26,560 nucleotides of DNA from a virus, in IMG/VR virus record IMGVR_UViG_3300048021_000334, positions 1 through 26,560 of that record; one strand, given 5' to 3'. The notes under the pieces were generated by a model. That model was not told where the DNA came from. It did not search any database and saw nothing but the letters and a program-made list of their open reading frames with translations. Below are positions 5,180 through 21,159 of the stretch, one piece after another (position 1 is the first letter of the stretch; each line of letters begins with the position of its first letter). Position numbers and translations under genes: made by a program.

Positions 5180-5740
5180 GTGTTACCAAAGCTATTAGTT
5201 GTAGGCCACGGCCGTCACGGCAAAGATACTGTATGTGAGATGTTAGAAACATATGGTTATAAATTTAAATCGTCATCAAAATTTTGTTCAGAACTTTTTA
5301 TTTTTAATGATCTAAAAGACCAATACGGTTATGCCGATGAAGAAGAATGTTATGCAGATAGACATAATCATCGGTCTGAATGGTACAATATGATACACGG
5401 TTATTGCAGTGACGATTTAGCTAAACTAGGACGCAACTTGTTTGCGAAACACGATATCTATTGTGGTCTAAGAAATAGACGAGAATTTTTTGCAATGCAA
5501 AATGAAGAAATTTTTGACTATGCTATTTGGGTAGACCGGTGCGATCATTTACCTACAGAAGATCCTAGTTCAATGAGTATTGAGCAATGGATGTGTGATT
5601 ACACAATTGACAATAATGGCGACTTGGTCCGTTTAGAAAAAAATGTAGATATACTAATTAAAACTATTTTTAAAAATCAGGGACTAGGTCTCCCTGTTTC
5701 CACGCAACTCCCTCTTTTTGAAGAGTTCGCTGACAGTTAG
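5180..5740 (+). CDS. P-loop (deoxy)nucleotide monophosphate kinase-like protein
   Basis: This 186-residue protein has an N-terminal P-loop, G9-HGRH-G14-K15-D16-T17, preceded by the hydrophobic strand LLVV. GKDT after a beta strand is the signature of small phage nucleotide kinases of the T4 gp1 (dNMP kinase)/adenylate-kinase-like group. These supply dNTP precursors. The segment GRNLFAKHDIYCGLRNRREF could serve the lid and base-binding region, and VDRCDHLP follows a later core strand. The exact nucleotide cannot be assigned. Translation starts at GTG 5180, backed by AAGGAG at 5168-5173, six bases upstream. The sigma70-like promoter fits early expression. The 3' end overlaps the convergent HNH-like gene by 71 bp. 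Confidence 0.72.
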   Translation: MLPKLLVVGHGRHGKDTVCEMLETYGYKFKSSSKFCSELFIFNDLKDQYGYADEEECYADRHNHRSEWYNMIHGYCSDDLAKLGRNLFAKHDIYCGLRNRREFFAMQNEEIFDYAIWVDRCDHLPTEDPSSMSIEQWMCDYTIDNNGDLVRLEKNVDILIKTIFKNQGLGLPVSTQLPLFEEFADS

Positions 5741-6005
5741 CACAAATAGTTTTTAAATTATTAGGCCGACAATTATTTAAATCTCCGTCTATGTGAAACA
5801 CATTAAACTGTTCAGGGTGCCTACTATGGTACCCGCATTTTTCACAAGCGTCTTTTTTCTCGTATCCTTTTTGTTTCCACTTAGGAATACCGTGCCCTAG
5901 GCCTTTACGTAAACAAGTTTCACATAGTCTACGATAGTAAGTTTTCTTACCTTTTTTATAGTTTACAGCGGCAGGACGTTGTCCGCACTTGCATAATGGT
6001 CTCAT
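5670..6005 (-). CDS. Small zinc-binding HNH-like protein
   Basis: This 111-residue protein has paired cysteines C5/C7 and C28-x2-C31, then C54-x2-C57 and C88-x2-C91. The middle FHIDGDLNNCRPNNLKTIC is the His-Asp...Asn-Asn...Asn-Leu pattern of an HNH or HNH-like fold with H71 as candidate catalytic residue. Very similar small proteins are common in marine T4-like phages. They may be free-standing nicking endonucleases or non-catalytic zinc proteins. A minus-strand GCTAAATA ends four bases before the ATG, and there is no Shine-Dalgarno sequence, so it seems to be its own late unit. It converges on and overlaps the kinase gene. Confidence 0.75.
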   Translation of the reverse strand: MRPLCKCGQRPAAVNYKKGKKTYYRRLCETCLRKGLGHGIPKWKQKGYEKKDACEKCGYHSRHPEQFNVFHIDGDLNNCRPNNLKTICANCQRTLQKEGVAWKQGDLVPDF

Positions 6006-9480: not shown

Positions 9481-9488
9481 GGTACTAA

Positions 9489-9514
9489 TTAGGCCCCTGA
9501 AATATGGGGCCTAA
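9489..9514 (+). terminator. GC-rich hairpin after gp18, no U-tract
   Basis: A perfect 9-bp stem TTAGGCCCC / GGGGCCTAA encloses an 8-nt loop (9498-9505), nine bases after the gp18 stop. It is followed by AATATGC rather than a T-run. It may be a weak terminator, an RNA 3'-end stabiliser or a processing site. Confidence 0.55.
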
Positions 9515-9518
9515 ATAT

Positions 9519-9526
9519 GCTAAATA
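9519..9526 (+). promoter_or_regulatory. Late-type promoter element GCTAAATA for gp19
   Basis: GCTAAATA lies 23 bp before the gp19 ATG, with CAGGAGA as Shine-Dalgarno in the predicted leader. A second TAAATA (9512-9517) lies on the edge of the preceding hairpin. Confidence 0.6.
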
Positions 9527-9549
9527 CTTGCAACAGGAGATAAAATAGA

Positions 9550-10176: not shown

Positions 10177-10203
10177 TAAACTCCTTTAAGCCATTCGTTA
10201 TAG

Positions 10204-10230
10204 AGAGGGAGCCGCAGAGCTCCCTTTTTT
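10204..10230 (+). terminator. Rho-independent terminator after gp19
   Basis: A 7-bp stem AGGGAGC / GCTCCCT (10206-10212 with 10219-10225), extendable by two weaker pairs, has a 6-nt loop and ends in an unbroken T-run to 10230. It isolates gp19 from the next late unit. Confidence 0.9.
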
Positions 10231-10255
10231 ATTATATACGCACATAATTTGTAAA

Positions 10256-10263
10256 GATAAATA
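10256..10263 (+). promoter_or_regulatory. Late-type promoter GATAAATA, five bases before an ATG
   Basis: GATAAATA is followed by TTAGT and the ATG at 10269. No Shine-Dalgarno sequence lies upstream. By T4 spacing the first transcribed base would be the A of the start codon. Confidence 0.65.
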
Positions 10264-10268
10264 TTAGT

Positions 10269-18160: not shown

Positions 18161-18180
18161 TAGTCCTGTTATAAGTTTTT
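18151..18180 (+). terminator. Possible terminator at the end of the LysM gene
   Basis: AGGGCTA (18151-18157) pairs with TAGTCCT (18161-18167), including one G-U pair, across a 3-nt loop. The first arm lies in the last codons. A TTTTT tract follows after nine bases rather than directly, so termination may be weak. Confidence 0.45.
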
Positions 18181-18203
18181 ATGTTTTTTCTTTAAAAAAA
18201 GAC

Positions 18204-18232
18204 TTGACAATGTTAGCAGATCAGTGTATTAT
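18204..18232 (+). promoter_or_regulatory. Sigma70-like promoter for gp32
   Basis: Consensus -35 TTGACA (18204-18209) and -10 TATTAT (18227-18232) are separated by 17 bp, 65 bp before the gp32 ATG. This would start early expression of the gp32-uvsX-uvsY block from host polymerase. Confidence 0.8.
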
Positions 18233-18297
18233 TATAACTGTGCTGCAAAACAAAGGCACAAAGGCTATAAGGCAATTACAATTAGGAGGCATATATT

Positions 18298-19263
18298 ATG
18301 GCATCATTAGCAGAAATCCGAGCAAAGCTCAAAGAGCAAGAAGCAGGTAACAACAACCGTCAATCAGGCGGTGGTGACAACAGCATTTACCCATTTTGGA
18401 ATATTAAAGAAGGCGAGAGCGCAACTCTACGTTTCCTTCCAGATGGCAATGCAGATAACACTTTCTTTTGGCAAGAACGTTTAGTAATTAAACTGCCATT
18501 TGCAGGTGTAACAGGACAAACTGATTCACGTCCTGTACAAGTACAGATCCCTTGTATGGAAATGTACGGCGAAACTTGTAACATTCTTAACGAAGTTAGA
18601 GGCTGGTTTAAAGATCCTTCATTAGAGGATATGGGTCGTAAATATTGGAAGAAGCGTTCATATATCTTCCAAGGATTTGTAACTGATAATCCACTTACAG
18701 ATGATCAAACTCCAGAGAACCCAATTCGTAGGTTTATTATTGGTCCGCAAATTTTCCAGATCATTAAGGCAGCACTTATGGATCCGGATATGGAAGAATT
18801 GCCAACTGATTACACAGGTGGTGTTGACTTCCGTCTTAACAAAACAAGTAAAGGTGGATATGCAGACTATTCAACATCTAACTGGGCACGTAGAGATCGT
18901 CCATTAGGTGATGCAGAAATGGCTGCTGTTGATGCACACGGCTTGTTTAACTTAGGCGATTTCCTACCTAAAAAACCAGGTGCAGTTGAACTTAAAGTAA
19001 TGCAAGAAATGTTTGAAGCGTCAGTAGACGGTGAAGCATTTGATATGGATCGTTGGGGTCAATATTTCCGTCCAGCGGGAATGGCGCAACGTACAGGCGA
19101 TCCAGTAGCAACGCCAAAAGCAACAACTCCTGCACCAGCACCTGCGGCAGAACCTGCTCCAGTAGCAGAGGCAGCACCGGCAGCACCAGCAGCCGAAGCG
19201 GCACCAGCAGGCGGTGGCGATGCAAATGACATTTTAGCAATGATCAGAGCACGTCAGTCTTAG
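18298..19263 (+). CDS. gp32: Single-stranded DNA-binding protein gp32
   Basis: This 321-residue protein opens with the basic helix ASLAEIRAKLKEQE, comparable to the cooperative-binding B region. An OB-fold core follows: YPFWNIKEGESATLRFLPDG, IPCMEMYGETCNIL, RGWFKDPSLEDMGRKYWKKR, IIGPQIFQIIKAAL. It resembles cyanophage gp32 closely. The T4 zinc site (one His and three Cys) is not clearly complete: only C86 and C94 stand in the expected area. The tail is Ala/Pro-rich and ends DANDILAMIRARQS instead of the long acidic T4 tail. gp32 coats ssDNA in replication and recombination and works with UvsX and UvsY encoded next. AGGAGG lies eight bases before the ATG. Confidence 0.92.
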   Translation: MASLAEIRAKLKEQEAGNNNRQSGGGDNSIYPFWNIKEGESATLRFLPDGNADNTFFWQERLVIKLPFAGVTGQTDSRPVQVQIPCMEMYGETCNILNEVRGWFKDPSLEDMGRKYWKKRSYIFQGFVTDNPLTDDQTPENPIRRFIIGPQIFQIIKAALMDPDMEELPTDYTGGVDFRLNKTSKGGYADYSTSNWARRDRPLGDAEMAAVDAHGLFNLGDFLPKKPGAVELKVMQEMFEASVDGEAFDMDRWGQYFRPAGMAQRTGDPVATPKATTPAPAPAAEPAPVAEAAPAAPAAEAAPAGGGDANDILAMIRARQS

Positions 19264-19272
19264 TAACACATT

Positions 19273-19356
19273 ATGACAGCTATTAACAAAACCGAAGCAG
19301 AGATTCACGGTTTACCTGTCAACACTTCAAACGTTAATAGCTGTCGAGCTTTTTAG
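19273..19356 (+). CDS. Possible 27-residue peptide inside the gp32-uvsX structured element
   Basis: An intact frame runs from ATG 19273 to TAG 19354-19356 (MTAINKTEAEIHGLPVNTSN, then VNSCRAF). It spans almost exactly the 13-bp inverted repeat. No good Shine-Dalgarno sequence precedes it. It may be a small protein, a leader peptide coupling translation to the fold, or a chance frame within a structured RNA. Confidence 0.3.
   Translation: MTAINKTEAEIHGLPVNTSNVNSCRAF
19275..19354 (+). other. Structured RNA candidate between gp32 and uvsX
   Basis: GACAGCTATTAAC (19275-19287) and GTTAATAGCTGTC (19333-19345) form a perfect 13-bp stem. Inside the 45-nt loop, AAACCG (19289-19294) and CGGTTT (19308-19313) form a second 6-bp stem. 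A TTTTT run follows at 19350-19354. It fills nearly all of the 106-bp gap. It could act as an attenuator or terminator between gp32 and uvsX, a small RNA 3' end, or an RNase III-type processing site. Confidence 0.6.
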
Positions 19357-19369
19357 ATAGGAGAAAAAT

Positions 19370-20464
19370 ATGGCGAACAAATCGTTTGACCCAACCAAGT
19401 TCCGTAAGGACTTAACAAAATCCATTACTGGTATGAGTAGCGGATTTAATGATCCGACTGATTGGATCAGCACAGGCAACTATGCACTAAACTATCTTAT
19501 TAGTGGCGACTTTAACAAAGGTGTGCCATTAGGCAAGGTAACTGTGTTTGCTGGTGAATCTGGTGCAGGTAAAAGTTATATCTGTTCAGGTAACATTGTA
19601 AAGGCAGCACAGGATCAAGGTATCTTTGTAGTATTAATTGACTCAGAGAATGCACTTGACGAATCGTGGCTACAAGCATTAGATGTAGACACATCAGAAG
19701 AAAAACTACTAAAACTTAATATGTCAATGATTGACGATGTAGCAAAAACTATGTCAACATTTATGGCAGATTACAAAGCAATGCCAGAAGAAGATCGTCC
19801 TAAAGTATTGTTTGTAGTTGATAGTTTAGGTATGTTATTAACACCTACTGATATTGATCAGTTTAACAAAGGTGATATGAAAGGTGATATGGGTCGTAAG
19901 CCCAAGCAGTTAACATCGCTTGTTCGTAACACAGTTAATATGATTGGTAGTTACAATGTAGGACTAGTATGTACTAACCATACATATGCATCACAAGATA
20001 TGTTTGATCCGGATGACAAGATCAGTGGTGGACAAGGCTTTATCTATGCATCTTCAATTGTTGTTGCAATGAAGAAGATGAAGTTAAAAGAAGACGAGGA
20101 TGGTAACAAGATCAGTCAAGTTATGGGTATCCGTGCTGGCTGTAAGGTTATGAAAACTCGTTATGCAAAACCGTTTGAAGGCGTACAAGTAAAGATTCCA
20201 TACGAAACAGGTATGAATCCTTATAGCGGCTTACTTGAACTGTTTGAAGCAAAAGACATCATTAAAAAGCAAGGCAACAGACTTGCATACACTACACTCG
20301 ACGGTGAAGAAATTTTAGACTATCGTAAGAAATGGGTAGGAGAAAATCTCGATAAAGTTATGTCAGATTACTTGGTAAAGCAAGCCGAAGTGGTAAATAC
20401 CGAGGAACTAGAATCAAGTGATCTAGACTTACAAGATAACGAGCTTACACTAACAGAGGAGTAG
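19370..20464 (+). CDS. uvsX: Recombinase UvsX
   Basis: This 364-residue RecA/Rad51-family protein has Walker A GESGAGKS at 62-69. Walker B is the strand VLFVVDSLGML. An FVVLIDSENALDESWLQ segment carries the catalytic Glu region. GLVCTNHTYAS and KISGGQGFIYASSIVV match the DNA-binding loops and polymerisation core. It catalyses strand exchange on gp32-coated ssDNA, driving recombination-dependent replication. The length is close to T4 UvsX (391). AGGAGA (19360-19365) supports the ATG. It lies behind the structured element and is followed by a small gene and uvsY, the same order as in marine T4-like phages. The acidic C-terminus (SSDLDLQDNE) is typical. Confidence 0.95.
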   Translation: MANKSFDPTKFRKDLTKSITGMSSGFNDPTDWISTGNYALNYLISGDFNKGVPLGKVTVFAGESGAGKSYICSGNIVKAAQDQGIFVVLIDSENALDESWLQALDVDTSEEKLLKLNMSMIDDVAKTMSTFMADYKAMPEEDRPKVLFVVDSLGMLLTPTDIDQFNKGDMKGDMGRKPKQLTSLVRNTVNMIGSYNVGLVCTNHTYASQDMFDPDDKISGGQGFIYASSIVVAMKKMKLKEDEDGNKISQVMGIRAGCKVMKTRYAKPFEGVQVKIPYETGMNPYSGLLELFEAKDIIKKQGNRLAYTTLDGEEILDYRKKWVGENLDKVMSDYLVKQAEVVNTEELESSDLDLQDNELTLTEE

Positions 20465-20703: not shown

Positions 20704-21159
20704 ATGGGTTGGTATAGCGAAGTTTCACGTGATGTAAGCAAGATACCTCAAGCAGTTGCGTACTTTGATAATGAGCTTTCACAAGCTCGTACTGAAGTAA
20801 AACTTTCAGGTAACGTTGAACGTGCTTCGGCAGAGATGCCTGGTATTGTTGAACATCGCTTTAATCAATTACAAGAAATTGAAGCTATACTAAACTATCT
20901 CAATATCGAGCTACGTAGGTTGCGTAGCTCGTATTTCAAAAAATACCTAGAAAACTATCAACGAGCTCTGTCTAGTCGCGACGTAGAAAAATACGTTGAC
21001 GGCGAGGCAGACGTTGTTGACTATGAAAAGATTATTAACGAGTTTGCACTAATGCGTAACAAGTGGTTAGGTCTACTTAAAGGACTTGATCAAAAGCAAT
21101 GGCAGATAACAAACGTAGTTAAACTTAGAGTAGCGGGTATGGAAGATGCAACCTTGTAA
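20704..21159 (+). CDS. uvsY: Recombination mediator UvsY
   Basis: This 151-residue, mainly helical protein has the marine UvsY pattern SKIPQAVAYFDNELSQARTE, then MPGIVEHRFNQLQEIEAILN, IELRRLRSSYFKKYLE and VEKYVDGEADVVDYEKIINE. It is slightly longer than T4 UvsY (137). UvsY hexamers load UvsX onto gp32-coated ssDNA. Its place after uvsX agrees. The 3' end overlaps the following glycosyltransferase gene by 14 bp, linking the recombination block directly to the sugar island. A 9-bp perfect inverted repeat lies within the coding sequence at 20907-20931. Confidence 0.9.
   Translation: MGWYSEVSRDVSKIPQAVAYFDNELSQARTEVKLSGNVERASAEMPGIVEHRFNQLQEIEAILNYLNIELRRLRSSYFKKYLENYQRALSSRDVEKYVDGEADVVDYEKIINEFALMRNKWLGLLKGLDQKQWQITNVVKLRVAGMEDATL
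20907..20931 (+). repeat. Perfect inverted repeat inside uvsY
   Basis: CGAGCTACG (20907-20915) and CGTAGCTCG (20923-20931) form a 9-bp GC-rich stem with a 7-nt loop, in A/T-rich surroundings. It encodes the IELRRLRSS segment. A regulatory function is not shown. Confidence 0.5.

Follow-up and report, generated by a model that had tools for sequence, protein, structure and literature searches.

The window, the whole 26,560-nt record of an uncultivated marine virus of bacteria, carries a gp32-like gene for a single-strand DNA-binding protein, a uvsX-like recombinase gene and a uvsY homologue (Table 1). A tail sheath gene is also present. Judged by terminase, with about 54% of amino acids identical, the PA5oct group of Pseudomonas jumbo phages comes closest among named phages. 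The gap from gp32 to uvsX spans 106 nt. An earlier note on this DNA had called it the only sizeable gap in the recombination operon, but 137 nt lie upstream of gp32 (18161-18297) and further gaps of 60 to 115 nt occur in the window. The promoter candidate upstream of gp32 is a consensus match only, and such sites are rarer in this region than in shuffles. Elsewhere in the window, strong hairpins stand 3' of the tail sheath gene (9481-9549) and 3' of the next gene (10177-10268, with a T-run typical of a terminator), and a small HNH-endonuclease-like frame, recognised by eye on the minus strand (5670-6005), overlaps the end of the gene at 5180-5740.

Table 1. Features at and around the gp32-uvsX junction, in window coordinates
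Feature	Position	Strand	Evidence or remark
Sigma-70-like promoter candidate TTGACA-17-TATTAT, upstream of gp32	18204..18232	+	11/12 consensus
gp32-like single-strand DNA-binding protein gene, upstream neighbour	18298..19263	+	phrog_1192, E 2.9e-60
27-codon ATG-TAG frame, judged incidental	19273..19356	+	start in 24/46
P1 outer stem, 5' arm GACAGCTATTAAC	19275..19287	+	13/15 aligned pairs double-changed; 100% of cells paired, 33 sequences
J1, A-rich joining strand AAAACC	19288..19293	+	complementary to GGUUU of tip; alternative pairing without covariation support
P2, 5' arm GAAG	19294..19297	+	covariation
Core GATTCACGGTTTACCTGTCAA, near-invariant tip	19302..19322	+	18-21/21 identity; at least 119 viral stretches
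P3 mini-hairpin CA-(Y)-GG-UUUA-CC-UG	19306..19318	+	G-C to U-A double change at pair 39-48, three rows
P2, 3' arm CTTC	19325..19328	+	covariation
P1 outer stem, 3' arm GTTAATAGCTGTC	19333..19345	+	covariation, shuffles
T-run	19350..19354	+	as CTTTTTAG before AGGAG in plain-hairpin relatives of one clade; not general
uvsX Shine-Dalgarno AGGAG, outside hairpin	19359..19363	+	sequence
uvsX-like recombinase gene, downstream neighbour	19370..20464	+	phrog_97, E 5.1e-69
uvsY homologue	20704..21159

The perfect 13-bp stem reported for this gap is present, as is the TTTTT run after it. None of 1000 dinucleotide shuffles contained such a stem, the longest reaching 10 bp, and the 26.5-kb window holds no second perfect stem of at least 11 bp with a loop of up to 61 nt. 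The minimum free energy of the element has a z of -3.8. The internal 6-bp stem that had also been proposed, AAACCG/CGGTTT, finds no support, its covariation (0.160) being that of shuffles (0.161). The inner stems that are supported are P2 and P3.

Covariance of the paired arms lends strong support to the earlier suggestion that the gap between gp32 and uvsX contains a regulatory RNA element. Across 33 distinct relatives, P1 and P2 show strong covariation; double changes occur in 19 of 24 pairs, and overall covariation is 0.490, against 0.177 in shuffles and at most 0.126 with the partners slid; sliding by 1 to 3 columns leaves only 27-41% of positions paired. P1 varies from 8 to 15 bp and is 100% paired in the 33 distinct elements, with double changes at 13 of 15 pairs; picking its arms as the best inverted repeat next to the tip biases the result somewhat towards P1, but arm choice alone cannot explain 8-15 paired positions in every case. 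P2 changes in concert on both sides (GAAG/CTTC, GGAG/CTCC, GGAAT/ATTCC, AGAG/CTCT and GCAT/ATGC), and P2 and P3 alone give a covariation of 0.324 versus 0.149 in shuffles. These counts are conservative, since MAFFT misaligns relative L008 and the bulges of P2. G-U pairs are tolerated in P1 and the element has the same orientation in 47 of 47 uvsX contexts, as expected of RNA. The hairpin is a conserved RNA element and not a coding feature.

The complete 27-codon frame that runs through the hairpin does exist, and it had raised the possibility of a leader peptide whose translation is sensed. An ATG opens this frame at the same place in 24 of 46 distinct elements, as opposed to 1 of 46 for each other frame. 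That ATG, however, belongs to the paired foot of P1; it is missing from the other 22 elements, some of which lost the start by point changes, and the frame has no Shine-Dalgarno sequence. In addition, L008 has a 2-nt insertion in the tip, and L034 and L121 swap the G and P of the peptide for C and H while the RNA pair is kept. Neither the start nor the frame is conserved, and a translated leader peptide is scarcely credible. Reading the tip as the peptide IHGLPVN was also dropped.

Unlike the stems, which change freely, the tip is nearly frozen. Phages that agree at only 53-76% of the four-fold sites of uvsX share 18 to 21 positions of the 21-nt sequence GATTCAYGGTTTACCTGTCAA. Within the sample collected through uvsX alone, all 21 positions agree among the window, L002, L004 and L029, and 18 of 21 agree with L034. 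A scan with the tip pattern GATTCAYNGTTTACNTGTCAA, which left P1, P2 and the pair at two N positions free, found at least 119 viral stretches, although the invariance of the tip in this set is partly by construction because the pattern fixes most of it. The free P3 pair is G-C or U-A, except in L008, which has a longer, rebuilt hairpin; relaxing the pattern gave mostly chance matches in coding sequence, the true elements having only those two pairs. No degenerate or intermediate copy of the core occurs in the uvsX samples, where it is either present or absent. Nearly fixed on changing stems, gained and lost repeatedly, and present also in a probable large RNA of other viruses (see below), the tip is probably an undescribed regulatory binding site. 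The operator hairpin bound by MS2-type coat proteins has a single 5' bulge two pairs below a four-nucleotide loop. The tip resembles it in this arrangement but differs in its pyrimidine bulge and UUUA loop, and the likeness does not imply a relative of the coat protein.

The position of the element is more widely conserved than its core. Among distinct gp32-uvsX gaps, 100 of 105 contain a hairpin with a fold z below -2 (41 of 44 with the core and 59 of 61 with a plain loop), so that a hairpin at this junction is conserved across these relatives, as in intercistronic hairpins of T4-like phages; only a subset of these hairpins carries the first core. Named phages with a hairpin in the slot are Ettore (Pseudomonas), XaC1 (Xanthomonas), a Vibrio phage and Hallingskeid (Erwinia). 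About 9 nt separate the gp32 stop codon from the stem and about 22 nt the stem from the uvsX start, alike in core and plain loci, and a Shine-Dalgarno-like motif follows the stem in all 55 core loci. When 80 uvsX relatives were fetched without regard to the gap, six of them, the window apart, held the same long-loop element, and one of the six (L001) is identical to the window in gp32, uvsX and the gap. The remainder had a plain hairpin, apart from a few in which gp32 was not next to uvsX. Further uvsX scans for a core-independent sample yielded largely contigs already in the set.

In a tree built from 133 uvsX rows, the label core or plain changes 16 times, with at least nine of the changes forced by well-supported branches; the label is nonetheless clustered (16 changes versus a shuffled mean of 42). 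L003 has a plain hairpin despite a uvsX 94% identical to that of the window. Together, these swaps and L003 indicate that the slot persists while the hairpins in it trade caps, probably through recombination around gp32 and uvsX. Because L003 lacks the core, the core is dispensable, and a binding step cannot be essential at this site; its absence from close relatives implies that it tunes rather than enables.

One possibility is that the hairpin is an intrinsic terminator or attenuator that lowers transcription of uvsX relative to gp32. The T-run of the window would fit, plain relatives such as L015 and L003 resemble textbook terminators, and a T-rich tail, defined as at least five T in the 8 nt after the stem, follows 31 of 55 core hairpins. 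Such a tail is, however, absent from the other 24 core hairpins and from 55 of 78 plain ones (23 have it). In the window, the stem is A+T-rich (5/13 GC), the loop is 45 nt long and the T-run begins 4 nt past the stem, so that the G+C-rich stem, short loop, directly following T-run and conservation of an intrinsic terminator are not found together. The T-run is part of a CTTTTTAG-AGGAG stretch before uvsX in one clade and is missing from many others. Since many of the hairpins lack a U-rich tail, termination is not the function they have in common; attenuation of uvsX, as the earlier note had proposed, is optional at most, and a terminator is an unlikely account of the element.

The first core is not the only one to occupy the slot. 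A few relatives carry a second, unrelated frozen loop, AGTTCCGGCAAAAACCTCCATNCGGTAAYCAGCGAGGTCT, on a changing stem at the same junction; its loop CCGGCAAAAACCTCCATNCGGTAAYCAGCGAGGT lies between gp32 and uvsX in L063, L064 and L358, and it also occurs in L366-L390. A scan placed the second core in 25 viral stretches. Of 11 distinct stretches that were read, nine precede uvsX, as judged by the pattern used; in L368 the core precedes a more distant recombinase-like frame and in L389 it lies elsewhere. The two cores never occurred together in the gaps examined. A possible third long-loop type (CACCCCCCAGGCTT...AGCTCAATACCGGGGGGTTACTT) was seen at the same junction in L010 and L055, whose inner hairpins differ from each other.

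The first core also occurs away from uvsX. In L121, L132 and L206 it stands, with its own P1 and P2, between phasin-like and methyltransferase-like frames, and in L189 it directly follows the end of a gene. The former three contigs have aminolevulinate-synthase-like frames in addition to the phasin-like ones (all these frames were assigned by eye). L206, which comes from a Flavobacteriales bin, has a glutamine riboswitch at 87-140 on the minus strand. In a further 14 contigs (L108, L109, L113, L125, L160, L174, L187, L194 and L212-L217), the tip lies in ORF-free stretches, 1.3-2.6 kb long where the contig end does not cut them, which have blocks of sequence in common. There, P2 is again a changing helix of 4-5 bp (CCUAC/GUAGG, CUUAC/GUAAG, CUUGA/UCAAG), and both settings have the same geometry of helix, three nucleotides, tip, one nucleotide and helix. 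Three of these regions lie near tRNA-Glu, and those that were read end in a strong hairpin with a T-run. A search of the ORF-free regions against Rfam returned nothing except a tRNA near one copy. These regions are probably a large, undescribed non-coding RNA outside Rfam, and finding the tip again in another RNA setting is consistent with a binding module that is portable.

An alternative is that the element controls uvsX as a ligand- or protein-driven switch: the nested P2-P3 fold would alternate with one in which J1 (AAACC) pairs with the GGUUU of the tip and makes a pseudoknot with P2. Complementarity of J1 and tip is kept in 92% of cells, the minimum-energy folds of relatives differ between the two pairings, and an H-type pseudoknot (CCG/CGG with ACCTC/GAGGT) can be drawn for the second core. 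The J1-tip pairing nevertheless covaries no more than shuffles do (0.160 versus 0.161), the change from G-C to U-A favours P3, and the large-RNA copies have no clear AAACC partner. A switch is therefore quite unlikely, although J1 and the tip may form an alternative or tertiary contact.

It could also be argued that the hairpin acts in DNA, as a mobile or recombination element such as an integration site or homing target, given its repeated gain and loss at one site and its presence in unrelated contexts. Searches of whole records turned up no more than one copy of the core in each, no enzyme is encoded in the gap, and the G-U pairs and the fixed orientation and spacing to the reading frames speak for RNA, making a DNA-level element very unlikely. 

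A reading that takes in both settings, which we advance tentatively as somewhat short of an even chance, is that marine T4-like jumbo phages use the gp32-uvsX junction as a slot into which different RNA cassettes can be set. Sister phages would exchange two or more unrelated frozen cores there, on freely changing stems, and the first core would be re-used in an undescribed 1-2-kb non-coding RNA of other viruses.

For the junction itself, sequence comparison points to an intercistronic RNA acting in cis within the gp32-uvsX message of T4-like jumbo phages, in which the boundary between gp32 and uvsX is capped by an exchangeable, putative binding module; we consider this interpretation evenly balanced. 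By blocking exonuclease, and in some cases by terminating transcription, the hairpin would form the 3' boundary of the gp32 message, such that gp32 is made in excess over uvsX and flow into uvsX is limited, and it would leave the uvsX Shine-Dalgarno sequence free just downstream. The tip may be where a partner acting in trans docks, an RNA-binding protein being the likeliest candidate; once docked, the partner would tune either decay or uvsX translation. In favour of such a boundary we count the hairpins after the tail sheath gene and the gene that follows it, both with products that are probably made in large amounts. The gene 32 transcripts exceed all other T4 mRNAs in stability and are cut near the stop codon (PMC3014915), which lends supporting context to a 3' boundary after gp32.

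In T4, gene 32 is autoregulated through a pseudoknot that lies in its 5' leader, next to the ribosome site and 67 nt before the start (PMC3014915). The analogy with gp32 autoregulation drawn in the earlier note applies insofar as both are structured RNAs tied to a gp32 mRNA in a T4-like phage, but it does not carry over directly, as the element here lies 3' of gp32 (19275-19345), before uvsX, and has another fold.

Intercistronic stem-loops and terminators of T4-like phages include UUCG-capped ones. The present element shares their intergenic position, and plain relatives L040, L043, L057 and L070 have UUCG loops, but its own loop, 45 nt long, is a conserved and structured module that plain loops can replace. 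The core recalls the large ornate RNAs GOLLD and ROOL (PMC12286853) in that it also occurs in long ORF-free viral regions, three of them near a tRNA gene, whereas the gp32-uvsX element is only about 70 nt long. L125 (1-1500) matched neither RNA in Rfam at E up to 10, and the other large-RNA loci had no GOLLD match at the gathering score. The window has no match in Rfam 15 at the gathering threshold and only noise at E up to 10, and the relatives have none at the element. BLAST of the element against named phages gave short chance matches only, with no named phage carrying the core at the sensitivity used. No description of the element was found in a limited literature search, and an earlier one is possible.

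These observations give a group of uncultivated viruses a structured RNA family that is well supported and not represented in Rfam 15. Its natural variation, with changing stems, a nearly fixed tip and sister phages with and without the core, makes its function directly testable by swaps. Through the tip that it shares with the element, the probable large phage RNA gives a way into asking what such giant RNAs bind. If the junction is a slot for RNA cassettes, the core would be a portable RNA module with a common partner, and its family would be a new one, reaching from mRNA control to giant RNAs. If the hairpin marks the boundary of the gp32 message, the balance between single-strand binding protein and recombinase would be guarded by RNA structure across this group of phages.
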